Shown: positions 7,543-46,030 of the stretch, piece by piece
How positions within the stretch are numbered: the stretch's first letter is position 1
How the letters are laid out: each line of letters begins with the position of its first letter
From: Acidobacteriaceae bacterium dw_441
Lineage (GTDB): Bacteria > Acidobacteriota > Terriglobia > Terriglobales > Acidobacteriaceae
Length of the DNA stretch: 64,000 nucleotides
NCBI GenBank assembly: GCA_018449715.1
Contig: JAAVVA010000005.1
Coordinates: 248,001 to 312,000 of the forward strand
Reading direction: 5' to 3'
Position numbers and translations under genes: made by a program
The notes under the pieces: generated by a model
The model's database searches: none
Seen by the model: only the letters and a program-made list of their open reading frames with translations
Told to the model about the DNA's origin: nothing

Positions 7543-7980
7543 ATGAAAGCCCAGATAAAACTATGGCTCGTTGCAGGTCTCATCATTCTTGGAGGATGTT
7601 GTCTTCCGCTGGCATCGGTCGCGGCCAGCAGCCAGACTACGTCCGACGATTCCACAGCACAGATGCGCGGTGGCTGTCCTTCTCCGGAAGAGACGGTTAC
7701 TCGTATGAGCAGCAAGCTCAACCTTTCAGACGATCAGAAGAACCAGATTCTTCCCATCATCACAAACCGTCAGGCACAGATGAAAGCTCTGATGGGTGAC
7801 GACTCAGGAAGAAGGATGCAGAAGGCGAGGAAGGCGCGGTCCATTATGTCCGAAAGCGACCAGAAGATAGAAGCCGTGCTCACCAGCGAACAGAAAAAGA
7901 CATACGAACAGATGAAGGAAGAGATGCGCGAACAGGTACGGTCTCGTATGCAGCAACGCAGCAGTAGCGGATTGCAGTAG
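7543..7980 (+). CDS. Spy/CpxP family periplasmic stress protein
   Basis: A 145-residue exported protein. The N-terminus has a signal peptide (MKAQIK, hydrophobic core, then ASVAAS cleavage region at about residue 29). The mature part is mostly charged helix and contains two LTxxQ-like repeats, one reading LNLSDDQK near residue 66 and the other LTSEQKK near residue 112, which define the Spy/CpxP superfamily of periplasmic chaperones and kinase modulators. The gene is divergent from a CpxR/CpxA-like pair, the arrangement seen for cpxP in enterobacteria, so a role as feedback inhibitor or target of that system is a reasonable inference. A methionine- and arginine-rich C-terminus is also typical. 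Confidence 0.85.
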   Translation: MKAQIKLWLVAGLIILGGCCLPLASVAASSQTTSDDSTAQMRGGCPSPEETVTRMSSKLNLSDDQKNQILPIITNRQAQMKALMGDDSGRRMQKARKARSIMSESDQKIEAVLTSEQKKTYEQMKEEMREQVRSRMQQRSSSGLQ

Positions 7981-9357: not shown

Positions 9358-12300
9358 TTAGAACGAGAGGCGTCCAGCGAACTGAACCTGTCTCGGGTTA
9401 TTGGTCTGCGTACTTACGATACCGAAGGTTGCGCTGCCCAACTGTGTTCCAGGGTCTCCGAACTGAACCCTGTTGAACAGGTTGAACATCTCCGCCTTGA
9501 AATCGAAGGATAGCCTTTCGGTGATTGGAATGGCCTTGCCTACGGTGAAATCCCAGTTGGCAATGCCGTGGCCACGCAGCGTACTATCCAGGCGGCTCTC
9601 ATTGCCGAAGGTGAACGCCGGAGGCGCCGCAAAGGCTGAGGTATTGAACCACTGCGTAACGCGCGACTGTGCAGAGCCGGACTTTTTCTTACGCTCGGGA
9701 TCAATCACATTCGGACGCGAACCGCCTCCCTGCGAGCCGGTCTGGTTGGCTGCGGTGGTCAGGCCAAGAGGAAATGCCGACTGCAGCGTGGTGATGCCGT
9801 TCACTGTCCATCCACCCACAATGCGATCGACGACCGGGCCAGCATTGGCGAAGTAGTGCTTGTTCTTGCCAAACGGGAGATTCAGAACATAGCTCACGAC
9901 AAACCGATGTGGCACGTCGAAGCTTGCCAGGCTTTTTTCTGCACGAAGGTTATTCCAGTCCTGAACACCCGCCGTGCCGTGGCTTTCCAGCCAGCTTGTT
10001 AGTGTGTCGGTATTGCTGATGAGCTTCGAGAACGTGTAGGAAGCAGAGATGATGCCTCCGCTCTTGAAGCGCTTCAGCAGCCTCGTCTGGAGAGAGTTCC
10101 AGTTTGAAGCGCCGCGTCCCCCGCCCGCGTCCTGAAAGTTCTGGAACTGCGGATAGGGACGAAGCAGTTGTCCGCGGGATACAGTTGGGTTCGCAAGGAG
10201 TCCATTGGTGATGTGACCATAGAACGGGTTGGTCACCGGTGCGTTCAACGCCGAGCCAAGAGACAACGCGGAGTCGGGAAGCTGATTGAGTTGGATCAAT
10301 GAGTGAGCAAGATGGGTTCCCTTCGATCCGGCGTATCCGATGTCGAAGAGAAGGTCTCCGGCAAACTGTTGTTGGATCTGGAAGTTCCACTGCTGTGCAT
10401 AACCAAACGGTGCGTCGGGGTTTGGCGAGGTAACGCTTTGCCCTTCGAAAAGGGAGAGTTGCGACGGATCGTGTCCGATGGGAGGGATGAGTCCCGTTGG
10501 GAACGGATCGGCAAAGGTAGCTGAGGGATACAGGCTGGTTGTGCCACCGACGGACGAGACGATGGTGGTGGTAGCCGCGTTGATCGGCGACTGGAACGGC
10601 GAGAGACTGTAATTCACCATGTCCGGTGGAATCCACGAAAGTCCGTAGCCTGCGCGAATGGACATGGTGGAGTTGGGGCTGTATGCCATGTTGATGCGTG
10701 GAGAAAACAGCTTGAACCGGTTGCGCAGGAACTGACGCGGGTTGTAAGCGTCGCTGTTGACCAGTGCGATCTGTCCTTTGAGCGGCAGGCCAACGCTGCT
10801 GCCCAGCGGGTCGGTGGCATTCGGCAACAGCACGGTCAGACGATCTCTTTTTTCGGTGAAGGTTTCAGGCCACTCCCAGCGAATGCCGCCAGTTACAGTG
10901 AGCTTGCGGGTGACGCTATAGGTGTCCTGCAGATAGGCGCCAATGTACCAGTTGATGGCATCGGTGAAGGCGATGCTGGCGGCCGAACCGCTGGCCGGGT
11001 TGCCGAGGAAGAAGGACGCGCCAGCATAGCCGGTGTTGGGGAGCTGCGCGTTGTTATGACCGGGATCAAGCTGCGCTGTGAAGCCCTGGTCGAAGGTGAA
11101 GGAGCCTGCCGCGGAACCGCTCTGCGCGAAGTTCCATTCGTTGTGCCGGGCTTCGCCGCCGAACTTGAGCGTGTGCTGTCCCAGGATCTTTGTAATGCCT
11201 CCGGAAAGGTCGTAGTTATTCACAATCGAGCGGTTATCCGTGCCGTTGAAGCCGTAGTATCCATTGCTTGCCAGAGGAGCCACGGGCAAGGTTACCTGTG
11301 ATGAAAGTTGCGCCCAGGCGGGACCGAACTTCGAGAGATCCGTTCCGAGCTGTTGCGGAGTGAAGCCGTTCGTCGCTCGCAGATACGATACGCGGAAGTC
11401 TGCAATCGTGTGTGGGTTGAAGGTGTAGGTATCGCCGATTACGAAGTTCTGCGCTCCGGTGTAGCTGTTAAGACCACCGAAGTTCACGTTGAAGGGATCG
11501 GCGGGAAGGCTGGTGCCTGCCCAGTAGCTGTAGCGCGCAAAGATGCGCTGATTCTCGCTCACGCTCCAATCCAGACGGGTGTTGTATTGGTTCGTGTTTC
11601 CTCCCAGCTTGGTGTTAGTGGCGAAGTTATTGCTTGGCAGCCCGGCGCCGCTGATCGTGGCAGGCTGATTCGGTAGTCCGTAGTAGGTCTGGAACTGCCT
11701 GGATGCAGTATCGAGACGTTCGACCGGAATGCGGTTGTATGCGAACGGCAGGCGTGGAGTTGTCCGTCCCGCAGGGCACGCAGGAGAACCGGAGACGCCG
11801 CAGGTGGTAAGCGGGTCGTACAGCTGCGTTCCGTTGCTTGCCGTGCAGAGGCCTGAGGCATCATAGGAAGAGCACAACGAACTGAAGTCACCGTTCTTGA
11901 ACGCGGCAGTAGGAACAGTTGTTTGTAGCGGATTACCGCGGCGGAAGGAGAAGCCTTCCCAGGAAAAGAATGCGAACAGCTTGTCGCGCTTGATTGGTCC
12001 GCCGACCGACACGCCGTACTGGTTCTGCGAGAAGGCAGGCGTGGGAATAATGGCAGCTGGATTGCGCTTGTTGAAGTACGTGTTCGAATTGAGTACGCGG
12101 TTGCGGATGTACTCGTACACGCTGCCGTGAAAGGCGTTGGTGCCGGACTTGGAAGCCATGTTGATGACGCCTCCGGCAAAGTGTCCAAACTCGGCGCTGA
12201 CCGCGTTGCTGTCAACGCGGAACTCCTGGATTGCATCCTGCGTCGGAACGAGTCCGGGGCTGTTGATGTACGTAGTGTTCAACGGAACGCCGTCCAGATA

Positions 12301-12993
12301 AAAGGCGCTCTGGTTGCCCATGCCGCCGCCGATCTGGTAGTTGCCGAAGCCGGTGTTATTCGTAAATGTTCCGCCGGACTGGTTGCCCAGCGGGTTGCCG
12401 CCTGTGGAACCTTGTGGCACGACTCCTGGTGCAAGGATTAGCAGGTTGAATACGTTGCGGCCGTTCAGTGGCATCTCCTGAACCTGCTTGCCTTCCACCA
12501 GTTGTCCCAGCGCGCCGGGCTGTGTCTCGAGGATGGGAGAGGTGGTGTCTACACTGATGGTTTCGGTGACACTGCCTACCTGCAGCTTGGCGTCGATGCG
12601 TATCGACGCCTGTACGGTGACTTGAATATTGGGGCGCTTCAGTGTGGCAAAGCCTGCATTTTCAACATCAACTTCATACGTTCCGGGAACAAGATTGGCG
12701 AACTGATAGTCGCCGGAGGTGTTCGTCTGAGCGGTTTTCCGTTCCTGCGTGCCGGTGTTGATCAGAGTGACATTTGCTCCCGGAAGTCCTGCATCGGAGG
12801 CGTCCGTAACGCGCCCCAGAATCGTGCCATAGGTCGTTTGCGCCGAGGCCGGAAGGAAGGAGAGAAAGAGCAGGGCGACTCCCAGGAGAAGCGAAGTCGC
12901 TGCACGGCGGTGAAGGTTAGAGGAGATACGGTATCTGGTCGTCCTGCTTGCATTCGTAAGCAGGTACATCCGGCAATTATGTTCGGTTTGCAT
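9358..12993 (-). CDS. TonB-dependent receptor with carboxypeptidase-regulatory domain (Oar-like)
   Basis: A giant outer-membrane protein of about 1,211 residues. After a signal peptide (cleavage near SFLPASAQ) comes a CarboxypepD_reg/Cna-B-like beta domain (GTILGRVTDASDAGLPGA and a GDYQFANLVPGTYEV segment), then a plug domain (QEMPLNGRNVFNLL, TKSGTNAFHGSVYE) and a 22-strand-type barrel ending in the aromatic C-terminal signature RLSF. Such Oar-like receptors import large nutrients, often oligosaccharides or metal complexes, using TonB energy. The ATG at 12993 is favoured because AAGGGAG (minus strand, 13004-13010) precedes it; an upstream ATG at 13023 adds ten residues. The divergent partner is a Tat-exported Nif3-like gene. 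Confidence 0.93.
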   Translation of the reverse strand: MQTEHNCRMYLLTNASRTTRYRISSNLHRRAATSLLLGVALLFLSFLPASAQTTYGTILGRVTDASDAGLPGANVTLINTGTQERKTAQTNTSGDYQFANLVPGTYEVDVENAGFATLKRPNIQVTVQASIRIDAKLQVGSVTETISVDTTSPILETQPGALGQLVEGKQVQEMPLNGRNVFNLLILAPGVVPQGSTGGNPLGNQSGGTFTNNTGFGNYQIGGGMGNQSAFYLDGVPLNTTYINSPGLVPTQDAIQEFRVDSNAVSAEFGHFAGGVINMASKSGTNAFHGSVYEYIRNRVLNSNTYFNKRNPAAIIPTPAFSQNQYGVSVGGPIKRDKLFAFFSWEGFSFRRGNPLQTTVPTAAFKNGDFSSLCSSYDASGLCTASNGTQLYDPLTTCGVSGSPACPAGRTTPRLPFAYNRIPVERLDTASRQFQTYYGLPNQPATISGAGLPSNNFATNTKLGGNTNQYNTRLDWSVSENQRIFARYSYWAGTSLPADPFNVNFGGLNSYTGAQNFVIGDTYTFNPHTIADFRVSYLRATNGFTPQQLGTDLSKFGPAWAQLSSQVTLPVAPLASNGYYGFNGTDNRSIVNNYDLSGGITKILGQHTLKFGGEARHNEWNFAQSGSAAGSFTFDQGFTAQLDPGHNNAQLPNTGYAGASFFLGNPASGSAASIAFTDAINWYIGAYLQDTYSVTRKLTVTGGIRWEWPETFTEKRDRLTVLLPNATDPLGSSVGLPLKGQIALVNSDAYNPRQFLRNRFKLFSPRINMAYSPNSTMSIRAGYGLSWIPPDMVNYSLSPFQSPINAATTTIVSSVGGTTSLYPSATFADPFPTGLIPPIGHDPSQLSLFEGQSVTSPNPDAPFGYAQQWNFQIQQQFAGDLLFDIGYAGSKGTHLAHSLIQLNQLPDSALSLGSALNAPVTNPFYGHITNGLLANPTVSRGQLLRPYPQFQNFQDAGGGRGASNWNSLQTRLLKRFKSGGIISASYTFSKLISNTDTLTSWLESHGTAGVQDWNNLRAEKSLASFDVPHRFVVSYVLNLPFGKNKHYFANAGPVVDRIVGGWTVNGITTLQSAFPLGLTTAANQTGSQGGGSRPNVIDPERKKKSGSAQSRVTQWFNTSAFAAPPAFTFGNESRLDSTLRGHGIANWDFTVGKAIPITERLSFDFKAEMFNLFNRVQFGDPGTQLGSATFGIVSTQTNNPRQVQFAGRLSF

Positions 12994-13399
12994 CACGGTG
13001 TCACTCCCTTGAAGATTTGCCAATGCATGCCCTGCGCGATGTCTCCAGCATCGGAGCCCCTTATTCCATCCAGCGGAAAGCGCAATTAAGAATGCGTATT
13101 ATGCAATCATGTTTTGACGACGACGGAACGCTAGCACCGCGACATGCCACAGTCAAGAAGGATTATTTGCACGTATTTCTACCTGCGTAACTCTCTGTAG
13201 CTTGAAAACTAGTTAATCCCTGTTGTTCAGAGTTACGAAAGCGGTGACGTGACTGTTCACGAATGGACGCCATGTCCAGCATGGTCACCTGGAAAAAACG
13301 ACCCATTGCAAACCATGTGGCGATTCAGGCTATGATGTTGCTCGCTCCTCAAAGCCCCGCAATCGGAGTCGTGTACCGGTGCGGTGAAAGATAGGAACT
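12994..13399. other. Divergent promoter region between TonB receptor and Nif3-like operon
   Basis: About 400 bases with no credible gene. It must hold the promoters for the receptor (minus) and for the Nif3-like operon (plus). On the plus strand TTGCAA (13306-13311) and TATGAT (13331-13336) could be a promoter, but the 19-base spacing is long. I see no clear operator. Confidence 0.35.
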
Positions 13400-18430: not shown

Positions 18431-21400
18431 TTAGAAGCTGAATCTTCCTGAGACTCTAAGAACACGTGCGTCTGCAACTCCGCCGGCTGTCGCGGTAATT
18501 TGACCAAAGTTGCTTGAAGACACATTGTTTGCAGGGTTTGCAAAGAATGGCGTATTCGTCAGGTTGAATGCCTCTCCTTTAACTTCGAAGTGCATCCGAT
18601 CCATGATTATGAAGGTTCTGCTAAGTCCAAGATCTAAGCCAGCACCTTTCGGGCCTCGCAACGAGTTACGGCTTGCGGTTCCGAAGGCAGCGGTTGTCAC
18701 AGGAGCAAATGCAGACGTATCAAACCACGTCGCCGTCTTGCCAATTCCACCGAGCGTTGCTACTTCTGACTTCACCCGATTTGCGACCTGCGTATTGAAC
18801 GGGGCGTTCAAAGAGGTTCCTGAAGCCAGCGGCGTAAAAGGAAGGCCGGTATAAGCAGAGAGCAATGCGTTGACTTTCCATCCGCCAAGAATCGCTCTTG
18901 CTATACCAGGATCTTTTAGCAAGAGATGGTTACGTCCGAACGGAAGTTCTGCTGTCGTTCCGAGTGCTAAGACGTGTCGTCGGTCGAAGTCACTCACAGC
19001 CTTGTTTCGATATTGATAAGCGACAGCGTTGAAGAGCGGTGTGCTGTCGTCATCCGTATTCAGATCAGTGGACTTCGCATAAGTGTATGCCGCAGTCAGC
19101 AACACGCCATGCTTGAAGGGATGCTTCAGGCTTGCCTGAAGGGCGTTGTAGTGCGTGGTTCCGAAGGGAGTAATGACCTGCGTTTGAGCATTCCGTCGAA
19201 ATGCTGCGTAGAGCGGCTGTCCCGCAGCGCCAAGTCCGGGAGTCTGACCTGCGTTAGCTTCTATGTATGCGGTTTGACGTATTCCCTGTGAACCGACATA
19301 GCTTACTGCCAGATTGAGGTCCCACGGAAGCATCCGCTCGACAGTGGCATTCCAGGATTCAATGTAGCCGCGACGGTAGGTGCCGGCAGGAAGCGTCTTC
19401 GTATAGGCGGTCAATGGAAGCTGTGCGAAACCATTGTTGATTACGGGAGCAACTGTGTCGAAGCCCGGAAGGCCAGTTACAAAATTCCCAGCACTTTGAT
19501 AGGAGTTATTCGCATTGATGGTTTGCGCAATCGTGACAGGATAGGGATCGCGCATCGCTCTGCTGAAAGGATAGGGATCGACGCTGATGCCATAGCCGCC
19601 ACGAAGGACTGTTTTTTCATTCATGCGATAGGCAAGCCCCAGACGCGGCCCGAACTGCAATTTACTGGATCTAGATCCAGCGCCAGATGGATTACTTCCG
19701 ACGCCACCGAGAATGACCTGATTGGTGGTCATATCGTAGCGTTCCATGCCTTTTCCATCCGCACGGACCATGATTGGGTAGAGCTCCCACCGCAGACCGT
19801 AGGTCAATGTAAGCTTACGGCTAGCCTGCCACTGGTCCTGAGCGTAGAGTCCATATTGCCATTCGCGTCCGATGATTGGATTGAGGTATTGATAGCTTCT
19901 TCCCATGGAATCAGGAAGCCCCAATAAGAATTGTGCGAAGGCATTGGTAGAGTTGGCAGAGGCACCTCCATTCAAAGCGGTGACTCCACCAGTGAAGGTG
20001 AATCCTCCAACGGGACCAAAACCGCGTTGAGGCTGATACTCGCTCATACGGTTGTTCATCATCTGAAGACCGAAGCGAATCGTATGTTTCGCGTGACTCC
20101 AGGTCATATTGCCAACGTAGGTCAGGGTAAGGTCGTCGCGAATCTCTGGGTTCCAGCCGTCGGTATGGCCAAAGGTTTCGAATCCAGTCACTGCAAACGA
20201 TGGCAGTCCCTTCTGATTAAGATCGGGGCCGTAAGAACCACTTCCGTTTCCATCGCCAATACCAGGAATGCCAAGAGACGTTCCCAGATCCGTGTTGTAG
20301 TCGCTCTCAAGAACGGATACGTAGTTGTGTCCGATGCCGAAGTTCGCATCGAGAAGCAGCGTAGGGGTGAAGATATGCGTGAAGCCGAGTCCGCCCACAT
20401 AGACATTCGATCGGCTGTAACCCGAACCGCCACCTGAGATAAGTCCGGAACCACCACCGATCCCCAACGCGCTTGGAGCCTTTACGTAAGCCAGCAAATA
20501 GCTGAATTTTCCAAAGAGCGAAGACTTGGGACTAACTTGCCACGATACCTTTTCATCAAAGGAAAACCGATCAATGGCATCGATACCAGAAACGGAATAA
20601 TTATTCGAAGTACCTGGAAGATTCGCGTGTGGGATGAGAGCGAGCACTCTGTTTGCTGCAGGGCTTATACCGGATTCAATTGCATTTCTGCCATCAGAAT
20701 TTTGGCTGGCAAAGCTTCTCCGTCCGGTGCCATCGGTATTTCCTGTGGTCGGATCGTAGATGGTCGTCAGGCCGGTGAAGTCACCTGCGCGCATCGCATC
20801 GGTAGGAACACTTGTGATGGTTGCATAAAGTTGGCGTTGAGAGATGCCCTCAAACCCTGAGAAGAAGAAGAGCCGGTTCCTCAGAATTGGACCACCGATG
20901 TTAGCTCCGAACTGGTTGAGGATGTTTTTCGGCGGAGCATCTCCTGCCTGTGCAAAGTAGGTCTTGTTATAAAAGTAGTTCCTTGCAGCCATGGCTGAAT
21001 TCGTGTGCATTTCCCACAGCGTGCCGTGGAATTCGTTCGTTCCGGATTTCGTCAGGACCGAAATTGCCGCGCCTCCAGCAAGCCCCTGCTCCGCAGTAAA
21101 GCTGTTGGTTACGATGTCGACCGACTGAATATTCTCCGTTGGAGGGTTGTAGAGCGTATGGTGCGGAAGATACACCTGCTGAATCGCAGCACCATCGACA
21201 GAGGTGATGTTGCTGGTACGCGATGCTCCATTAATATTGGTGGTCAATGAGCGTGACGGGGTATCCATCACGGCATTCTGATAGCGCGATGGAGTCGCCC
21301 CGGGCGTCAAATTAATTAAGCTCTGGTAGTTTCCATAGCCTCCGATGGGAAGGTTGCTTAGTTCTCGCGAAGAGAGTTGCCCATGAAGTACGCCGCTGTC

Positions 21401-21796
21401 CGTCTGCAGCTCGGAAGAGGACGCGTGGACTTCAACCGTTTGCTCGGAAGTGATTTTGAGGCGTTCGTCCGCACGTGCGGTTACGTTCGCTCGGACGTCC
21501 AGGCCATCCACAGCGACGGAGGCGAAACCGGGGGCGGAAATTTGGACACGGTAAACTCCCGGCGTCAGGTTGTGAATTTCATAGTTTCCCGCTGAGTTGG
21601 AACTCACGCTGGCCGAGACGCCCGTCTGCTGATTGGTTGCTACAACTATTGCGTTCGGGATGGATTGACTTGAGGGATCAGTTATATTGCCGACGACTGT
21701 GCCATACAGAACCTGACAGCGTGCAACACATGCTGGGAGTTGGAGTGCTGCCAGCGTAAGGCCTACTCTTAAGAAATTTGTGAATCGATTCCGCAT
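18431..21796 (-). CDS. TonB-dependent receptor with carboxypeptidase-regulatory domain (Oar-like), second copy
   Basis: A 1,121-residue outer-membrane receptor of the same family as the one at 9358, though clearly diverged. Signal peptide to about residue 27, Cna-B-like domain (GTVVGNITDPSSQSIPNA, GNYEIHNLTPGVYRV), plug with LSSRELSNLPIGG and TKSGTNEFHGTLWE, then the barrel with several GGPILRNRLFFF and YVGSQG-type strands and the final RVSGRFSF. The missing conventional TonB box is typical of this family. The region upstream has an inverted repeat at 21921-21971. The metallo-hydrolase follows downstream, giving an uptake-plus-hydrolase pair. Ligand unknown. Confidence 0.93.
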   Translation of the reverse strand: MRNRFTNFLRVGLTLAALQLPACVARCQVLYGTVVGNITDPSSQSIPNAIVVATNQQTGVSASVSSNSAGNYEIHNLTPGVYRVQISAPGFASVAVDGLDVRANVTARADERLKITSEQTVEVHASSSELQTDSGVLHGQLSSRELSNLPIGGYGNYQSLINLTPGATPSRYQNAVMDTPSRSLTTNINGASRTSNITSVDGAAIQQVYLPHHTLYNPPTENIQSVDIVTNSFTAEQGLAGGAAISVLTKSGTNEFHGTLWEMHTNSAMAARNYFYNKTYFAQAGDAPPKNILNQFGANIGGPILRNRLFFFSGFEGISQRQLYATITSVPTDAMRAGDFTGLTTIYDPTTGNTDGTGRRSFASQNSDGRNAIESGISPAANRVLALIPHANLPGTSNNYSVSGIDAIDRFSFDEKVSWQVSPKSSLFGKFSYLLAYVKAPSALGIGGGSGLISGGGSGYSRSNVYVGGLGFTHIFTPTLLLDANFGIGHNYVSVLESDYNTDLGTSLGIPGIGDGNGSGSYGPDLNQKGLPSFAVTGFETFGHTDGWNPEIRDDLTLTYVGNMTWSHAKHTIRFGLQMMNNRMSEYQPQRGFGPVGGFTFTGGVTALNGGASANSTNAFAQFLLGLPDSMGRSYQYLNPIIGREWQYGLYAQDQWQASRKLTLTYGLRWELYPIMVRADGKGMERYDMTTNQVILGGVGSNPSGAGSRSSKLQFGPRLGLAYRMNEKTVLRGGYGISVDPYPFSRAMRDPYPVTIAQTINANNSYQSAGNFVTGLPGFDTVAPVINNGFAQLPLTAYTKTLPAGTYRRGYIESWNATVERMLPWDLNLAVSYVGSQGIRQTAYIEANAGQTPGLGAAGQPLYAAFRRNAQTQVITPFGTTHYNALQASLKHPFKHGVLLTAAYTYAKSTDLNTDDDSTPLFNAVAYQYRNKAVSDFDRRHVLALGTTAELPFGRNHLLLKDPGIARAILGGWKVNALLSAYTGLPFTPLASGTSLNAPFNTQVANRVKSEVATLGGIGKTATWFDTSAFAPVTTAAFGTASRNSLRGPKGAGLDLGLSRTFIIMDRMHFEVKGEAFNLTNTPFFANPANNVSSSNFGQITATAGGVADARVLRVSGRFSF

Positions 21797-36624: not shown

Positions 36625-39600
36625 ATGCCTATGCTTTGGCTGCTCGCGCCCGGTACGCTGGTTCTGATTTGGGTGCTCTACTCGATGTCCCCCGCGAAGA
36701 AGGCGATCCGCCTCGTCGAGGCCGCGGCCAAAACGGTTGAAGGGCTCCAGGCGGAAACAGACGCCTGCCGCGAAGAATGTCGGTCCGAGGTCTCCGCTGC
36801 TGCTGGAGCCCGCAGGGATGACATCCAGTTCATCCGCCTGCAAGCCATCTCGATGGAGGAATTGAAGAAACATGCCACTGGTCTCCGATTGCAGCCGCTT
36901 CGTGATGCTGGCGTGCGCAACATGGCGGATCTGCAAAGCTGGAGCCAAGGGCGCCTCGAAAACTTGCGCGGCGTCGGGCCGAAGTCTGCGGCAACGATCC
37001 CAGGCATCGTTCAGCGGATCTCCTCTTCGGTTAGAGCTCAACCCATCGCGGATCCCGAACCACCTTTTCTCCGGGACAAAGAGCGGGGACTTGTCTTGGC
37101 AATCTACCGTGAACTCCAATGTGACCGCCTACTGGCTAAGATGCCTTCCGAATTCCAAAAGCTTCGGAGCGACACGAATGAGACTCAGGAACAGGTGCGA
37201 ACGAAGACGCGCTTCTTTCGGTGGGTCTGGACCTTCGGCAAGAGCGAGGATGTCCGAACCGCTATTCTGGCAGCCCAGGACACTGCGCGTTCCTATGAAA
37301 AAGGAGACGACGCCGACACAGTATGCGAGCAGGTGCGAGCGTTGCTATCTGAGTGCCGCTCCGTGCGCTCCAATCGCGTCGAGACATCAACACTGACCGA
37401 AGAGTACAACGAGCATTGGAATGACTTTGGCGTTGTGCTTGGAAGAACCATCGGGGACAACGGTCGCGTGAGGCGGACACCACCGGTTCGTTTACGGCCA
37501 GAAGCCCCGCTGACCAACGCTCTGCCGCCGCAAACTTCGGCATCGAGCACGGGCTACCAAAGCCGCTTGCAAGTTGGTCCGGAACTTACCCGACAGAACC
37601 TAGACGACACAACGACCGCGCAAGATATCGAGCTTACGAATTCCGGAAATGATTTGAAACAAGAAGGAGCCAGCTCGGTGGCCATAACAAACGCTTCCGC
37701 GGGTTCGCTCGATGATTCGAAGCAACAGGCTCGAGAGCAACTTCAGAAGTACATCGATTCCATCGCACCGGCGAAGTTTGATAAGGAGAAGCTCTCAGTC
37801 GATCACGGCCTTACTTCCTTTCGTATCGGCGTACAGACGACGGTCTCAGCGTTTGCGATACCGACGCCGGCGGGCGGCCGCTCCAAGAAGGTCGAGCGCT
37901 GGATCGGTAAGAATGATTCCGTCGTGGTTCAGGGTGTAACGCTTGCCAGGGGAATGGTCTTTGTGAGCGATGAGGCCGCCGAGCCTGCGCCGGGAGTGAT
38001 CTATCCTTCGCTGGAGGTGCGGGCCGGAAACTATCAGCCCAGCGGGGCGGATATGCATTGGCAGGGCTACGCGGGCCTTACACCGGTGCAGCGTTACCAC
38101 TATCTGCATTGGCTGGCGGATGGAGCTCGCTCGAAGGACTTCCCTCATTTTGCGGTCTTCTATTTCCATGGCCTTGAGCGTCGCCTGGTCCAGATCGCCG
38201 AAAGTGGAAACGTCCCGTCGTCCGACAAGAACGAAGTGCTGGACGAAGTTCGAAGGATTACTACCGAATTCTCCGAGTTCAACATTCCCCTGTCGTTCTA
38301 CTCGGATCGCCTTGTTTCTTTCTTTGAGCTTCGCGCTCTGTCGCCAGACGCTCCCGTTGACCTCGATGCCCCCCTGCGCCGCTTCCATGAACTGCCGTGG
38401 AGACTCGTGTATGACTTGGGGCGCCTCGCAGCAGATCAAAGACCTGTACCTCCCGCACTTGCACTCCGCTGGTTGAAACTAGAGCCGAACTACTATCCCC
38501 GAACGTCCGTGACTCGTTGTCCCGAGCAGTTCGACTCGCTCTTCCTATCTATGTACGTCGAGAAGTTTGGCGAGGGCATGATGCTACCCGCTCGTGGAAA
38601 GACGCTCACCTTCCGATACGACCCCTCGAACTACTACCTGCGAAGCAAGGAACTCGAACTGACGTTCAAGGCACTACCGGACGTCCGCGAATGGGTAAAC
38701 ATCCGGAGCGAGTTGGGAACTCTCGCCAACGAGGTCACTGGCAAAATCGACGCCTACAGCAGGTTTTGCGGCCGGTCGCCAGACAAGGCGAACACGGTTC
38801 AGGCTTGTCTGCTCCTACCCCGCGAAATTTGGCCCGAGACAGCGCGAGCAACGCTGGAACATTTGAAGCAGCTGGCCAGTGGTTTTGCGTCGACCGAGTG
38901 GAGTCTTTTTCTTGAACACCTCGACACCGCGGAGCCGCTCCCCTCGAACCAATTGCAGGAAATCGCTCGTGGTTTGCAAGCGATGGGCCTGGGAATCGAG
39001 CCGGATCTCTTGGAGGGAACGCGCAGACCGAAGGCCGGCGAACTCTGCACGTTGTTCCATCTCACGGCGGACGAAGAACCAGCCCGTACTGATGCTGCAT
39101 ACCGCAACGCATCCCTTGCGGTTTCCCTCATGGCATGTGTCGCCGCGGCCGATGGTCACGCGAGCGACACCGAGGAGGCCACCGCGGGGAACATCATTTC
39201 TTCGTGGACCCACTTGCACCGTGATCATCAGACGCGGTTGCAAGCGATATACCGCCACCAGACGCAGCAACCTGCTCGCCTCTCCAATCTCAAGAGCCGG
39301 ATGCTCTCGATGCCACAGGACGACCGGGCCGCACTGCTTGGCATTCTTGCGCAGATGGTGACCTCGGACGATGTTGTGAGTGCTGCCGAGGTCAAGTTCC
39401 TGGAGCAGGTCTACATCATGCTTGGGGTCGACCAGGGGCAGCTCTACACCGCCCTCCACAAGGGGAACATTGCGGCGACGCGGGAATCGGTCGGCACCGG
39501 TATGTCGCCGCGCCGTGAGGCTTCCCCCAACAGTTTCGCATTGGATCTGGGACGCATTGAGCGTCTGAAGGCTGAGAGCGCGCAAGTATCGCAGCTTCTG

Positions 39601-39930
39601 GCTGAAGTCTTTCAGGATGAGGAACCAGTTACTGCAGTTGCGATGATCCCCGAAGCAAATCTGGTGGAAGTTGTGACGGGGCCTAACGAGGCAGATGCGC
39701 CAGCGATCTGGCCTGGACTCAGCAAAGCCGAGACCGAGTTCCTTACGTTGCTTCTGACCAAATCCGAGTGGACTCGTCAGGAGCTCGCTGCAGCGGCTGC
39801 CGAGCGAAACATGATGCTCGACGGAACGCTGGAGGTGATTAATGATGCCTCCTTTGATGTCCTGGGCGAAGCCTTGCTCGACGGGCATGATCCAATCTAT
39901 GTACAAACCACGCTTCTGGAGAACGCCTGA
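36625..39930 (+). CDS. TerB_N-TerB-TerB_C domain protein with N-terminal anchor and HhH domain
   Basis: A 1,101-residue multidomain protein, first gene of a three-gene cassette. Residues 4-20 form a membrane helix, followed by a coiled region. Residues about 89-130 resemble a helix-hairpin-helix (LENLRGVGPKSAATIPGIV), a DNA-binding fold. A TerB_N domain spans about 425-610 (GLTPVQRYHYLHWLADGARS, then FAVFYFHGLERRLV). The TerB helical core near 830-950 carries the acidic metal-binding signature CVAAADGHASDTEE. TerB_C forms the last 150 residues (GLSKAETEFLTLLL to PIYVQTTLLE). Inference: a membrane-tethered sensor/scaffold that recruits the ATPase and helicase encoded next. ATG 36631 fits AGGA better than 36625. 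Confidence 0.88.
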   Translation: MPMLWLLAPGTLVLIWVLYSMSPAKKAIRLVEAAAKTVEGLQAETDACREECRSEVSAAAGARRDDIQFIRLQAISMEELKKHATGLRLQPLRDAGVRNMADLQSWSQGRLENLRGVGPKSAATIPGIVQRISSSVRAQPIADPEPPFLRDKERGLVLAIYRELQCDRLLAKMPSEFQKLRSDTNETQEQVRTKTRFFRWVWTFGKSEDVRTAILAAQDTARSYEKGDDADTVCEQVRALLSECRSVRSNRVETSTLTEEYNEHWNDFGVVLGRTIGDNGRVRRTPPVRLRPEAPLTNALPPQTSASSTGYQSRLQVGPELTRQNLDDTTTAQDIELTNSGNDLKQEGASSVAITNASAGSLDDSKQQAREQLQKYIDSIAPAKFDKEKLSVDHGLTSFRIGVQTTVSAFAIPTPAGGRSKKVERWIGKNDSVVVQGVTLARGMVFVSDEAAEPAPGVIYPSLEVRAGNYQPSGADMHWQGYAGLTPVQRYHYLHWLADGARSKDFPHFAVFYFHGLERRLVQIAESGNVPSSDKNEVLDEVRRITTEFSEFNIPLSFYSDRLVSFFELRALSPDAPVDLDAPLRRFHELPWRLVYDLGRLAADQRPVPPALALRWLKLEPNYYPRTSVTRCPEQFDSLFLSMYVEKFGEGMMLPARGKTLTFRYDPSNYYLRSKELELTFKALPDVREWVNIRSELGTLANEVTGKIDAYSRFCGRSPDKANTVQACLLLPREIWPETARATLEHLKQLASGFASTEWSLFLEHLDTAEPLPSNQLQEIARGLQAMGLGIEPDLLEGTRRPKAGELCTLFHLTADEEPARTDAAYRNASLAVSLMACVAAADGHASDTEEATAGNIISSWTHLHRDHQTRLQAIYRHQTQQPARLSNLKSRMLSMPQDDRAALLGILAQMVTSDDVVSAAEVKFLEQVYIMLGVDQGQLYTALHKGNIAATRESVGTGMSPRREASPNSFALDLGRIERLKAESAQVSQLLAEVFQDEEPVTAVAMIPEANLVEVVTGPNEADAPAIWPGLSKAETEFLTLLLTKSEWTRQELAAAAAERNMMLDGTLEVINDASFDVLGEALLDGHDPIYVQTTLLENA

Positions 39931-39932
39931 CC

Positions 39933-41228
39933 ATGCCACCCATACGTGCTCGTGACCGCGACTCAGTTCTGCAATCGCTTCGTGCCGGGGTAGTGCCTCG
40001 CCAGGGACAGCATTTAATCCAGGTCGGCCGCGTCCAGGAAATCCGCGCACTCATGGCGGACATCGACCGTATCGCGGATGGTGGCTCAACGTTCCGGCTC
40101 GTCATTGGTGAGTATGGCGCTGGCAAGACATTCTTCCTGAATCTGGTCCGGTCCATCGCGTTGGAGAAGAAGCTTGTCACCATGCACGCAGACCTAAACC
40201 CGGATCGGCGTCTGCACGCGTCCGGAGGGCAAGCGAGATCGCTCTACGCGGAACTTACCCGCAACATGGCGACACGCACCAAGCCCGAAGGCGGAGCTCT
40301 CGCCGGGATCCTCGAAAAGTTCATCGGAACCGCGCGAACGATCGCGGAAGAATCGGGCGCAACCGTCGAACGAGTTGTGCGCCAACAGGTCCAGTCGCTG
40401 ACCGAGATGGTCAACGGATACGATTTCGCAGAAGTCGTGCTTGCCTACTGGCGCGGCCACGAAGAAGGCAACGAGCAGCTGCGGACGGACGCGGTGCGGT
40501 GGCTGCGCGGAGAGTTCACGACACGCACCGACGCGCGTGCAGCACTGGGCGTTCGCTCCATCGTGGATGACGCGACGGTGTACGACCAGTTGAAACTAAT
40601 GGCTCGCTTCGTTCGACTGTCCGGCTACAGCGGTTTGTTGGTCTGCCTGGACGAAATGGTCAACCTGTACAAACTGGCCAACACGCAGGCTCGCACGTCG
40701 AACTACGAGCAGATCCTCCGCATCCTCAACGACTCCTTGCAGGGGTCCGCCGAAGGCCTGGGATTTGTTCTGGGAGGCACACCTGAGTTCCTCTTCGACA
40801 CCAGGCGTGGCCTCTACAGCTACACGGCCCTGCAGTCGCGGTTATCGCAGAACACGTTTGCGCAAGGTGGCCTGACAGACCTCTCGGGGCCCGTTGTTCG
40901 GCTGACCGCACTGACCCAGGAAGATTTCTACGTCTTGCTGCACAAGCTGCGCGATGTCTTCGCCTTCGGCGACCCAGCGAAGTACACGCTTCCCGAAGAA
41001 GGCATCCCGGCGTTCATGCAGTACGTGAGCCAGAGGCTTGGTGCGGAGTATTTCCGCACGCCACGCACGACCATCACCTCGTTCATCGATCTGCTGAGTG
41101 TCCTTGAAAGCAATCCCGGAGCGGATTGGCAAAGCCTGCTCGGCGGTATTAGCGTGCAGCCCGATCACGGCGGCGATGGAGACAACGCCCTGGAGCCCGA
41201 GGATGACCTCGTCAGCTTCAAACTCTGA
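39933..41228 (+). CDS. BrxD-like P-loop ATPase (DUF2791)
   Basis: A 431-residue AAA-type ATPase that I recognise as the DUF2791 family, the BrxD component of type 2 BREX phage defence. The start is GRVQEIRALMADIDRIADGG, the Walker A is GEYGAGKTFFL (residues 59-69), the Walker B is LLVCLDEMVNLYKL near residue 227, followed by the conserved GLGFVLGGTPEFLFD and LYSYTALQSRL segments. It starts two bases after the TerB gene stop. In BREX this ATPase works with the helicase BrxHI; the same helicase type follows here with a 26-base overlap. The Cys-free C-terminal tail is acidic. No other BREX genes lie nearby. Confidence 0.9.
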   Translation: MPPIRARDRDSVLQSLRAGVVPRQGQHLIQVGRVQEIRALMADIDRIADGGSTFRLVIGEYGAGKTFFLNLVRSIALEKKLVTMHADLNPDRRLHASGGQARSLYAELTRNMATRTKPEGGALAGILEKFIGTARTIAEESGATVERVVRQQVQSLTEMVNGYDFAEVVLAYWRGHEEGNEQLRTDAVRWLRGEFTTRTDARAALGVRSIVDDATVYDQLKLMARFVRLSGYSGLLVCLDEMVNLYKLANTQARTSNYEQILRILNDSLQGSAEGLGFVLGGTPEFLFDTRRGLYSYTALQSRLSQNTFAQGGLTDLSGPVVRLTALTQEDFYVLLHKLRDVFAFGDPAKYTLPEEGIPAFMQYVSQRLGAEYFRTPRTTITSFIDLLSVLESNPGADWQSLLGGISVQPDHGGDGDNALEPEDDLVSFKL

Positions 41229-43449
41229 GACAGCGTCATTTCATCTTCTCGACCCGCGTATCCAGCACTGGATCTGGCAGCGCGGGTGGACGAGCCTCCG
41301 TGCCGTCCAGGAACTCGCTGTGCCGCCTCTCCTCAAGGGCGAACAGGATGTCATCCTTGCAGCGGCCACGTCTGCGGGCAAGACCGAGGCCGCCTTCTTT
41401 CCTATCCTCACGCGGCTCCTCAATAGTGGCGAGGCGTCAGGCTTTGTATTGTCCATCAGCCCGCTCAAGGCACTCATCAACGATCAGGCGGACCGACTGA
41501 CGGACCTATGCGAATCGCTTGACCTGCCAGTGCTCGGCTGGCATGGCGATGTCTCTCAAACGCGGAAGCAGAAGTTCCTGAAGAGTCTGCGGGGCGTGCT
41601 CATCATCACCCCTGAATCGCTTGAGTCCCTGTTCGTGAACAAGGGGACGATGATGCCAGCCTTCGCAGGCGCAATCGCCCATATCGTGGTCGACGAGTTG
41701 CATTCGTTCCTCGAAGCGGAGCGTGGCAAGCAGGTACAGTCCCTCATGTACCGCCTGGAGCGGGCGGCGGGACGACGCATCCCCCGCGCCGGTCTATCAG
41801 CGACCCTCGGAGACAAGACGCTTGCCGCAACCTTCCTGCGCCCCGGCCCTAACAACAACGTCTTCACTGTCGACGCCGGTAGCGAAGGCTACGAGATGAA
41901 GCTCGCTGTGAAAGGTTACGTCGATGGGCAAGTCGCCGAGGAAGAATCCTGGTCCGACGATCCAGCGGCGGCCGCACCGCCAGAGAAGCAGATGGCCAGC
42001 ACAGCAGAGCTGGCGATTGCCGACTACCTCTACACGCATCTGCGCGGATCGAATCACCTGATCTTTCCAAATAGCCGTGCGAAGGTTGAGAAGTACGCGG
42101 ATCGGCTCCGTCAGCGCTCCGAACGCGAAGGCGTGCGAAATGAATTCTGGACGCATCACGGCAGCCTGTCCCGCGAGTTGCGCGAGGAGTCGGAAACCGC
42201 CCTCAAAGGCGGTACTGCATCAGCGTCCGCGTTGTGCACGACCACGCTCGAACTGGGCATCGACATCGGAAACATCAAGAGCGTCGCCCAGATCGGGCCC
42301 CCTCCTTCCGTTGCCAGTCTTCGCCAACGACTTGGCCGCTCGGGTCGACGAGCTAGGGAGCCAGCGATCCTGCGGTGCTTCTGTATCGAGAAGCCACTCA
42401 CCCCTGACTCCCCTCTCTCGGATCGCATTCGGGAAGGCTTGGTACAGACCGTCGCGATGGTACGACTGCTCATGCGGCCGTGGGTGGAACCGCCACGGCT
42501 AACCGCGATCCATGCGTCGACTTTCGTGCAGCAGGCGCTTTCCGTCATTGCGGAGCGTGGCGGTGCCACTGCCGCAGAACTCTGGACGGTCCTTGTTCAA
42601 AGCGGAACCTTCGACCGGATGTCGCGGGAGATGTTCACCGATATTTTGCGCGGACTCGGCGCACGCGACATCCTGCAGCAGGAGAACACCGGCCTCCTCC
42701 TCGCCGGCACCGTTGGCGAGAAGCTCATCAATCACTACGACTTCTATAGCGCCTTCTCCTCACCGGATGAGTTCCGGCTGGTCGCGGGCGATCGGGTGCT
42801 TGGTTCACTGCCCGTGACACGGCCTTTGACTGTCGGGCAGCGCATGATCTTTGGTGGACGGCGCTGGCGTGTGCGCGAAGTCGATACCGAACATAAGGTA
42901 ATCTATGTCTCCGCGGACCGCGGTGGCGCTCCCCCGTCTTTCGAATCCAACGGTGGCGGAGTGCACGACGTCATCCGGCAGGAGATGAGAGTCGTGCTCG
43001 GCGAAACCGGTGAGCTCTCGTACCTCGACGCTCCAGCAAAAGAACTGCTCTATGAAGCCCGAAGGACGTACCGGGACCTTCGTCTGTCGGAACGGCAGTC
43101 CTTCCGGGATGGCAAGAACACCCTGCTGTTCACATGGATGGGAGACGCGGTGAACAGCACGCTTGCATTCATGCTGTCGCAGCGTCGCCTCGAGTGCACG
43201 AATGAAGGCGTCGCGCTGGCGATCTCCACCGATGTTGACCAAGGTCGCCTGATAGCTGAGCTGAACTCTATCGCGGAGGAAGCTGTGCCAGCCGCTGGTG
43301 ACCTTGGCATCTCTCCCGAGATGGCCGCAGTCGAAAAATGGGATTGGGCGTTGTCGAAGTCCACGTGTGTAGAGTCTTACGTGTCCGCGCGGCTGGATCT
43401 TGCGGGGGCCAGGGTTCTCGCGGCTCAGCTGGCTGAGAGCATCCGCTGA
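41203..43449 (+). CDS. Lhr/BrxHI-like superfamily 2 DEAD/DEAH-box helicase
   Basis: A 748-residue helicase. Motif I is ATSAGKTE (about residues 55-62), motif Ia SPLKALINDQ, motif II DELH (164-167), motif III GLSATLG, then the second RecA domain with TTLELGIDIGN and the arginine-finger motif VI RQRLGRSGRR. A winged-helix and a beta-rich C-terminal segment follow, as in Lhr and BrxHI (COG1201). I start at ATG 41203, preceded by GGAG, which overlaps the ATPase gene by 26 bases in another frame. It is the third gene of the TerB/BrxD/helicase cassette and probably unwinds or translocates on DNA. A 20 bp palindrome follows. Confidence 0.9.
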   Translation: MTSSASNSETASFHLLDPRIQHWIWQRGWTSLRAVQELAVPPLLKGEQDVILAAATSAGKTEAAFFPILTRLLNSGEASGFVLSISPLKALINDQADRLTDLCESLDLPVLGWHGDVSQTRKQKFLKSLRGVLIITPESLESLFVNKGTMMPAFAGAIAHIVVDELHSFLEAERGKQVQSLMYRLERAAGRRIPRAGLSATLGDKTLAATFLRPGPNNNVFTVDAGSEGYEMKLAVKGYVDGQVAEEESWSDDPAAAAPPEKQMASTAELAIADYLYTHLRGSNHLIFPNSRAKVEKYADRLRQRSEREGVRNEFWTHHGSLSRELREESETALKGGTASASALCTTTLELGIDIGNIKSVAQIGPPPSVASLRQRLGRSGRRAREPAILRCFCIEKPLTPDSPLSDRIREGLVQTVAMVRLLMRPWVEPPRLTAIHASTFVQQALSVIAERGGATAAELWTVLVQSGTFDRMSREMFTDILRGLGARDILQQENTGLLLAGTVGEKLINHYDFYSAFSSPDEFRLVAGDRVLGSLPVTRPLTVGQRMIFGGRRWRVREVDTEHKVIYVSADRGGAPPSFESNGGGVHDVIRQEMRVVLGETGELSYLDAPAKELLYEARRTYRDLRLSERQSFRDGKNTLLFTWMGDAVNSTLAFMLSQRRLECTNEGVALAISTDVDQGRLIAELNSIAEEAVPAAGDLGISPEMAAVEKWDWALSKSTCVESYVSARLDLAGARVLAAQLAESIR

Positions 43450-44434: not shown

Positions 44435-44878
44435 GTGCACATCCATTCGTATCGATTGCGAAATTATCGACGCTTGAAAGACGTCCAAATTGAGTTGGCG
44501 CAGGATATTTCGATTTTTGTGGGATCGAACAATAGCGGCAAGACATCGGCGACCCATGCAATTCATGCTTTCCTGTCTGGTTCGAAGGATCGCTTCAGCC
44601 TCTATGACTTCACGTCTGCTTTGTGGCATGGAATAGATAAAGCCGGAGAAGCCGATTTAACGACAGAACTTCCGGAAGACTGGGGGTTGCCGAGTATCAG
44701 CTTGGACCTATGGTTCGAAGTCGCCGAATCGGATCTTTATCTCGTCATCCCTCTCCTTCCAAGCACCGAATGGGCTGGGACCAAGGTCGGGATACGGATT
44801 GCGTTCTCTCCTCGGAGCTCTCTCGAAGTCGTCCGCAACTTTCAGGCGGCGAAAGCAAAAGTCGCCCGAAACTTGTGA
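44435..44878 (+). pseudogene. OLD-family/RecF-like ATPase, N-terminal fragment
   Basis: The 147 residues start with the typical RLRNYRRLKDVQIEL strand-helix and the Walker A motif GSNNSGKT (residues 30-37), as in OLD family nucleases and Gabija GajA-like proteins. The signature motif, Walker B and any Toprim nuclease domain are missing: the frame stops after AAKAKVARNL. It meets the 3' end of the truncated integrase gene on the opposite strand within 40 bases, so a deletion has removed both C-termini. GTG start at 44435 with GGAG seven bases upstream. Confidence 0.75.
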
Positions 44879-45867
44879 AGCCAGAACTCATCGTGATTCA
44901 ACCTGGCCTTCCTGGCGTTCCGCTTGAGAGCGCGCAGCATATGCTTGTCGCGTGTGGTGTTCTCTGTGCTGAAGACCAACGAATGGGCCGACGCGCGTGA
45001 TGCTGGCAGGGACTTGCGATGAGCTTCCAGTATCGCCAGCAACTCGTTCGGCACGGGGACTTCACGCTCCTTGTAAGCCTTCGGAGTCCAGTTGAACTGG
45101 GGCTTCCAGCGCATCTCGATGATGTTGGCGTTGAAGCGGATGTTATTCCAGACAACGTGCATGGCCTCTTGTTCTCGAAAGCCGCTCATGAGAAGGAAGT
45201 CGTAAAGCGTGCTGTGGTACGGAGAGCAGACGGCATGGAGCTTCGATAGCTCCTCTTCTTCGTAGATCGAGACTTCCTGCTCGATGAAGCGCGGATGATC
45301 GTTCTTGCCAATCAGCTTCGGCACGCCTTGGGCCTGAAGGAAGGTGAGCACGTCTGCGAACTTGTTATGCACGGTGCGTGGAGAGAGCTTCTTCGTATCG
45401 CGGAGGAAGGCCGCCAGGCGCAGGAGATCTTTCCGCTCCACCTCGTCCAGAAATCTCTTGCCGCAGGACTCCTGGAAATACCGCAGGGAGACGATATATC
45501 CCATCCAGGTTTTTCTTTGCCTGCTGAGTTGAATCTCTTCGAGAAAGTCGTCTACTGCAGAACTGATTCGCAAACGAGAGTCATCTTCGATGAGGATTGG
45601 AAACGATGAGTCCAGATGCGAGCGCATCCAGTTCTCGCTGTTTTCGAGTGCGGCAATTGTAGGCAACAGTTGCGTCGGTGCCGACGGACACGCGGTTGCG
45701 TTTCCGTCTTCGGTCCAATCGAGGTAGTAGGCGCCTTCGGGATGCTTTTCCTGGCGTCCGTCGACCATCACCGAATCGGGCTTGATGCGGCCGTTGGGAC
45801 CGACGACAACAGGGCAGTAGCGCTTGCCCTCCGGGGTGTCGATACGTTTGGTGATATTCACCTGCAT
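44842..45867 (-). pseudogene. Tyrosine integrase lacking its C-terminal catalytic tyrosine
   Basis: A 341-residue phage-type integrase. The SAM-like N-terminal binding domain (KTWMGYIVSLRYFQESCG) is present, the first catalytic arginine is in LMSGFREQEAMHVVW, and the H-x-x-R box reads LHKFRATFA near the end. After TFA the sequence stops within three residues, so the LGH..D box and the nucleophilic tyrosine, normally 35-60 residues further on, are gone. The ATG at 45867 follows GGAAGG. The gene begins 87 bases from tRNA-Pro, typical for an integrase whose element entered the 3' end of that tRNA. Inactive as written. Confidence 0.8.
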
Positions 45868-45953
45868 GGGACCTTCCCACGGCAAAGTTCGTATCACTTT
45901 TCGTATCACCCCTTCCATACTCGGTCAAAAGTATTGATAGGAAAATGGTTAGA

Positions 45954-46030
45954 TGGTCGGGGCGGAGGGATTCGAACCCCCGACCCTCTGCTCCCAAAGC
46001 AGATGCGCTACCAGACTGCGCTACGCCCCG
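45954..46030 (-). tRNA. tRNA-Pro(TGG)
   Basis: The minus strand gives a full cloverleaf of 77 bases including an encoded CCA: acceptor CGGGGCG, D arm with GCGCAGTCTGGTAGCGC, anticodon loop CTTTGGG (anticodon TGG), T arm GGGTTCGAATCCC. The truncated tyrosine integrase lies next to its 3' end, suggesting use as an integration site. Confidence 0.95.

Follow-up and report, generated by a model that had tools for sequence, protein, structure and literature searches.

Introduction

Shango is made up of three genes whose products carry TerB, helicase and ATPase domains, and was described in the defence hotspot cDHS1 of Pseudomonas aeruginosa (PMC10250203). In strain PAO1 it cuts the plating of many phages, but not of all, by 10-100-fold and protects liquid cultures, while Shango from E. 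coli islands inhibits two phages about tenfold (PMC10250203). Here, we analyse a stretch of 64,000 nucleotides from Acidobacteriaceae bacterium dw_441 (contig JAAVVA010000005.1, positions 248,001 to 312,000), referred to as the window and numbered from its first base, in which three adjacent genes almost certainly encode a Shango anti-phage system (SngA-SngB-SngC). This confidence applies to the identity of the system and not to its mechanism. Shango as such is already published; what is new here is its acidobacterial lineage and the N-terminus that SngA has in this lineage.

The closest relatives of two of the proteins belong to BREX type 2 (Pgl). SngC, BrxHI, DruE and DpdJ have been grouped as a potentially distinct helicase clade (PMC12278908), and for the BREX pair a possible role of BrxD, an ATPase of the ORC/Cdc6 type, in loading or activating BrxHI has been proposed, in an account that does not mention Shango (PMC12839542). 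A TerB domain or homologue also occurs in Bunzi and Dionysus (PMC10952713, PMC12926258), which we compared with Shango by name only.

Results

Gene layout, domains and motifs

All three genes lie on the forward strand in the order A-B-C. The first, sngA (36625..39930), encodes a protein of 1101 residues with the Pfam domains TerB_N (5.6e-21, aa 430-628), TerB (2.4e-11, aa 832-940) and TerB_C (2.7e-28, aa 959-1100), all of which exceed the curated cut-offs. It is followed after two bases by sngB (39933..41228), encoding an ATPase of the BrxC/BrxD family with 431 residues (Pfam BrxC_BrxD, 4.4e-153), and then by sngC (41203..43449), the gene for a superfamily 2 DEAD/DEAH helicase of the SngC/BrxHI/Lhr kind (Pfam DEAD, 3.7e-28; Helicase_C, 1.7e-13). 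The original prediction, made from the letters alone, had the three open reading frames, their order, the two-base gap and the domains of all three proteins right. Its 26-base overlap between sngB and sngC holds with the ATG at 41203 as the start of sngC; the frame at its longest, from a GTG at 41098 to 43449 (783 residues), would overlap sngB by 131 bases.

The catalytic motifs of the ATPase and the helicase are intact. SngB carries the Walker A sequence GEYGAGKT and the Walker B sequence LVCLDE, and both patterns recur in all 80 homologues compared. Window SngC has every helicase motif looked for; among its homologues, motifs I, II and III are found in 79 of 80 and motif VI in 78 of 80. Pfam matched no nuclease family in any of the three proteins, which makes unwinding or blocking of DNA a likelier activity than cutting. 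In sequence comparisons with solved structures, 2h5n was the sole match of SngA (E 0.0021), SngC found general helicases with YprA as the best (6.8e-21), and SngB found nothing at E values up to 0.1.

The trio belongs to Shango and not to BREX

The best PADLOC matches of the three proteins are SngA (2.9e-60, 203 bits, aa 417-1097), SngB (7.3e-180) and SngC (1.1e-260). The ATPase scores 597 bits with the SngB profile versus 166 bits with BrxD, and the helicase 865 bits with SngC versus 419 bits with BrxHI. The reverse control behaves as the mirror image: for the BREX pair of a genome of the same genus (G225), which has PglZ beside it, BrxD scores 642 bits against 148 for SngB, and BrxHI 880 bits against 422 for SngC. 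Window SngB reaches 161.8 bits with the NCBIfam BrxD equivalog, whose cut-off is 350.

Maximum-likelihood trees of the ATPases (29 rows) and the helicases (22 rows), in both of which long branches were flagged, agree with the profile scores. In the ATPase tree the window protein falls inside a Shango group of 17 rows (support 100/100), apart from four BREX-labelled rows (100/99); three of the four genomes behind these rows carry PglZ on the same contig, while the fourth, G176, lacks a PglZ match, and its label is our own. The helicase tree places the window protein inside a Shango group of 13 rows (97/93), with only one BREX row for comparison.

Gene order tells the same story. At an E. coli locus (L146) genes for a TerB_N protein, an ATP-binding protein and a DEAD/DEAH helicase are adjacent on one strand in exactly the order of the window trio, score as SngA, SngB and SngC with PADLOC, and adjoin AbiEii and an ATP-dependent nuclease. 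The original report on E. coli Shango is said to be that of Millman et al. 2022 (named in PMC10952713). The acidobacterial locus thus resembles Shango in its three proteins, their order, their tight spacing and the company of defence-type genes seen in E. coli. Identity to the E. coli proteins is 59% for SngB, 41% for SngC and 26% for SngA, and to those of P. aeruginosa PA7 72%, 53% and 32%, respectively. Window SngA differs from these in length, with 1101 residues compared with 775 for L146 of E. coli and 954 for PA7. With type 2 BREX the trio shares an ATPase of the BrxC/BrxD family and, after it, an Lhr-like helicase; in contrast to BREX, it has a TerB protein instead of PglZ.

Kinship of the ATPase and the helicase to BrxD and BrxHI, part of the original prediction, is real but distant (23% and 32% identity to the G225 pair). 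Independence from BREX, which had also been claimed, is borne out by the profile scores, the ATPase tree and the absence of a PglZ match from the genome, and had been published before. What had been described as a stand-alone cassette is indeed a three-gene system separate from BREX; that it is a named and tested one, Shango, had been missed.

Occurrence with and without BREX genes

In a census of 297 genomes of the phylum, the dw_441 genome included, the SngA profile matches in six. Exactly these six have an SngB above 540 bits, the next-best genome reaching 147 bits, and SngC stands beside SngB in all of them, although it is split into two frames in G098. PglZ matches occur in 29 of the 297 genomes, 20 of them above the cut-off, and in none of the six with SngA, which with six genomes is weak evidence when taken alone. 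A PglZ search of the dw_441 genome itself at E 0.001 found nothing. A Pfam scan of 18 chosen neighbouring open reading frames found no BREX gene beside the trio, as originally stated; PglX, PglW and BrxC were not searched genome-wide. Of the 80 Shango loci described below, 76 were put forward for a PglZ search, which covered 50 Shango-bearing genomes; four gave a match and two of these exceeded the cut-off. The contigs of these two, 52,383 and 35,420 bases long, are not the Shango contigs of 166,928 and 20,626 bases and have no sequence overlap with them, a comparison made for the two matches above the cut-off only. The original prediction had asked whether the trio mostly accompanies other BREX genes: judged by PglZ, and not by PglX, PglW or BrxC, it does so in none of six genomes within the phylum and, at any place in the genome, in 4 of 50 of the wider set.

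SngC alone proved useless as a census marker, with matches in 289 of the 297 genomes and in 13 of 14 control genomes. SngC-like helicases, possibly including BrxHI, were found in 744 of 72,556 plasmid records, all at less than 60% identity.

Conservation of the cassette in relatives

Conservation was studied in the best 80 of at least 550 SngB relatives, a set that leans to close relatives. In 76 of the 80 loci the trio lies side by side on one strand, by a scripted rule that allows a few hundred bases. Some of the 76 were counted with a partial sngA, which is broken into two frames in L002, represented by a piece of 174 residues in L034, and short in L033, L055 and L061, where the contig ends nearby. 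The four exceptions comprise a contig edge (L032), a split sngA (L060), a partial second sngA and sngB (L003) and an extra frame (L014).

Two of these loci have unusual layouts. The Pseudomonas locus L003 (6363-11296) carries a partial tandem duplication, with another piece of sngA and a short piece of sngB. In Aromatoleum (L014, 6061-10004) the extra frame lies between sngA and sngB and has TerB_N-like and TerB_C-like parts.

SngA combines a conserved core with a rarely shared N-terminus

Window SngA was aligned with the proteins from 35 chosen loci (36 rows). TerB_N, TerB and TerB_C are covered in all 35, but just one of them aligns over the first 140 residues, another difference from described Shango systems. 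A core common to all and an N-terminus shared with one suggest that the N-terminus may determine where, or on what, the core acts.

The core is also the part of SngA for which the predicted structure is informative: the mean pLDDT is 69, with good values mainly at about residues 421-940. The TerB domain (aa 832-940, 39118..39444, forward strand) is predicted to fold like 2ou3, titled a tellurite resistance protein (Z 11.7, rmsd 4.2, 132 aligned residues), and like 2h5n (Z 9.6, rmsd 3.7, 119 aligned residues). VIA-align rows on the SngA model fall mostly on the TerB part and on residues 1030-1101. In the latter region, the rows with Z values of 5 to 7.5 are winged-helix proteins such as ScpB and MukE; by the tool's own warning such values may mean only a common arrangement, and we do not build on them. 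A nuclease hidden in SngA was sought with the predicted model and not found: Foldseek gave no match at E <=0.001, in a search that barely covered the protein outside TerB and the C-terminus. An unrecognised nuclease in SngA is possible.

The N-terminus contains two features (both forward strand). The first, a hydrophobic segment (aa 3-21, 36631..36687), is a possible membrane anchor. The membrane anchor of the original prediction is thereby reduced to one hydrophobic stretch of middling strength, with a Kyte-Doolittle value of 1.83 over 19 residues, below the stricter threshold of 1.9. An N-terminal hydrophobic segment of at least 1.6 is present in 33 of the 35 other aligned SngA proteins, and one of 1.9 within the first 250 residues in 57 of 83 SngA pieces, the window protein not being among them. 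A membrane link therefore seems common in SngA but weakest in the window protein, judging from hydropathy.

The second feature is a helix-hairpin-helix (HhH)-like motif (aa 92-125, 36898..36999) with the hairpin GVGPKSA. Its Pfam HHH_5 match stays below threshold (14.5 bits versus a cut-off of 27, E 0.052), so that this element of the original prediction stands as a hairpin kept in related N-termini and not as a recognised domain. GVGPKSA is identical in all five aligned acidobacterial N-termini (window, L001, L002, L112 and L145), of which L001 and L112 are near-identical. A loose HhH pattern matches several other SngA proteins but is unspecific; the tighter pattern G[VI]G[PE] selects the window protein and L001 only among the 36 aligned rows. 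At three other loci of the phylum, BLAST with window SngA reached only the core (L113, L114) or nothing (L115), which argues that the N-terminal module is not general even within the phylum. Residues 1-300 searched against 80 family genomes matched only the window and G410, where the matching protein is itself an SngA. The HhH-like module has thus been seen on SngA only, in a few acidobacterial members, and sets these apart from other Shango systems. At the G410 locus (L145, 8866-11598) SngA stops before TerB_C, an opposite-strand open reading frame follows and the contig end is near; this is apparently a broken Shango locus.

The cassette lies in a decaying defence island at tRNA-Pro

Downstream of the trio lie two genes that are not part of Shango. 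A gajA (Gabija) fragment (44435..44878, forward strand; PADLOC GajA 2.8e-52, Pfam AAA_15) covers the first 148 of 752 profile positions. It abuts a tyrosine integrase gene (44842..45918, reverse strand; Pfam Phage_integrase 9.5e-08) whose product lacks its C-terminal end, and the two frames overlap by 37 bases, as if joined by a deletion. The truncated integrase and the abutting gajA fragment identify the surroundings as a decaying defence island. Next comes tRNA-Pro (tgg) (45954..46030, reverse strand; ARAGORN), the likely integration site of the island.

We compared this place in seven relatives, namely the six with the best DUF72 matches and G210, reading up to about 18 kb of the cassette side. 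The flank across tRNA-Pro from the cassette, with DUF4112 and DUF72 genes, is common to all seven. The cassette is at this place in none; G210 has a Shango of its own elsewhere (L112). On the cassette side, the common pieces are an integrase in L128 and a repeat of the tRNA end in L129. The window integrase is 63% identical over 346 columns to the L128 integrase at the same tRNA, which runs 60 residues further, and in L129 the tRNA end recurs about 8.6 kb away as a 46-base exact repeat (7626-7671). This integrase and this repeat suggest that tRNA-Pro (tgg) has repeatedly served for integration in the genus. Isolated genes from the far left of the window also recur, 414-1379 in L126 and 25140-25964 in L127, and more weakly 26680-27429 in L126 and L130. 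A search of the window for another copy of the tRNA-Pro end (its first 18 or more bases, at 20% mismatch) was negative, which leaves the left boundary of the island undefined.

Elsewhere in the window, 9358-13023 and 18431-21796 each encode a large beta-barrel protein of the outer membrane (CarboxypepD_reg / OMP_b-brl_4 kind), of a sort that is ordinary in this group.

A related four-gene cassette

The same phylum harbours a four-gene cassette consisting of genes for a protein of about 290 residues, two successive BrxD-like ATPases and an Lhr/BrxHI/SngC-like helicase. It is complete in 7 of 12 loci examined, two query loci included (L134, 6744-12211; L132, 6411-12139; L136, L137, L138, L139 and L140). 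Like Shango, it pairs a BrxD-like ATPase with an SngC/BrxHI-like helicase and has no PglZ match beside it; unlike Shango, it has a second ATPase, and the protein of about 290 residues, two examples of which had no match in Pfam or PADLOC, takes the place of TerB. In the seven genomes there is no PglZ match on the same contig, and G005 and G060 have one on another contig. In the helicase tree, the helicases of this cassette group apart from the others (8 rows, 100/99). No named system was assigned to this cassette, at which no literature search was aimed.

Discussion

Phage restriction by Shango is known from the homologous systems, and by analogy with them the acidobacterial trio would act on phages as well. 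How it might do so can be sketched. The N-terminus of SngA would fix the protein in or near the membrane, and SngA would sense or hold incoming phage DNA through TerB, in this lineage aided by the HhH-like motif. The ATPase SngB would then load the helicase SngC onto the phage DNA, an idea taken from the proposal for BrxD and BrxHI (PMC12839542). SngC would unwind the DNA and strip off or block the replication or transcription machinery of the phage; since Pfam recognised no nuclease domain in any of the three proteins, the unwound DNA may be exposed to host nucleases. This scheme as a whole is a guess, and one that we hold to be somewhat doubtful; the role of TerB as sensor or tether, already suggested in the original prediction, we infer as before. 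We consider unlikely the more specific idea that some Acidobacteriaceae SngA proteins are DNA-binding membrane tethers, in which the anchor, a long helix and the HhH motif would capture entering phage DNA and SngB would load SngC at that spot.

Several points weigh against the assignment to Shango or against the mechanism sketched for it. NCBIfam gave no Shango-named match for the trio. SngA has strongly diverged from the E. coli and PA7 proteins (26-32% identity), and the SngA of G251 is matched by the profile and not by BLAST with the window protein. The neighbouring gajA and integrase genes are broken, in contrast to the open frames of the three sng genes. On the side of mechanism, the predicted SngB model is too poor for a fold search (pLDDT 52), a 2026 review lists the mechanism of Shango as unknown (PMC12926258), and in the literature searched, which mostly excludes subscription journals and gives no proof of absence, we found neither a mechanistic study of Shango nor a paper that joins Shango, Acidobacteriota and defense systems.

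The alternative that survives best accepts the Shango identity and holds that the locus is a non-working relic in a decaying island. The reduction of the adjacent gajA to 148 of 752 positions and the missing C-terminal end of the integrase are what such decay would look like, as are the SngA of the relative G410, which ends before TerB_C, and a genome (G063) in which the SngC frame has two stops and no SngA or SngB matches. The window genes themselves, in contrast, are all open at full length, with intact Walker, DExH, SAT and motif VI signatures, and we regard a relic as quite improbable. Still less probable, and clearly so, is a TerB-linked module for DNA repair or for tellurite or oxidative stress instead of phage defence. 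The family name of TerB and the HhH-like motif would fit it, as would a match of the helicase to the DNA-damage-response helicase model TIGR04121, which is far below the cut-off (192 bits versus 850). In ter (tellurite resistance) operons, TerB stands beside TerC, TerD and TerZ; Pfam found none of these families in the 18 neighbouring open reading frames, the genome not being searched. What speaks against a stress module is the restriction of phages by homologous cassettes (PMC10250203), the sporadic distribution (6 of 297 genomes), the location near a tRNA, an integrase and a Gabija fragment, and the occurrence of SngC-like helicases, possibly including BrxHI, in plasmid records; the DNA-damage role of the original prediction found no support, with no evidence either way. 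Finally, a partial or degenerate type 2 BREX that lost PglX, PglZ, PglW and BrxC and kept BrxD and BrxHI, to which the distant kinship of SngB and SngC and the sub-cut-off BrxD match might point, can practically be dismissed, given the wide margin by which the BrxD cut-off was missed, the position on the Shango side by profile scores and ATPase tree, the PglZ searches including that of its own genome, the adjacency of the trio in 76 of 80 loci and a TerB gene that is not among the BREX parts given in PMC12839542 (no occurrence of TerB).

For the trio as a Shango system, the profile scores separate Shango from BREX in both directions, which is of value mainly for annotation, and a TerB/ATPase/helicase cassette separate from BREX is confirmed in Acidobacteriota. 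If SngA did act as a membrane tether in this lineage, that would show where Shango meets its target and would give a handle on its mechanism.

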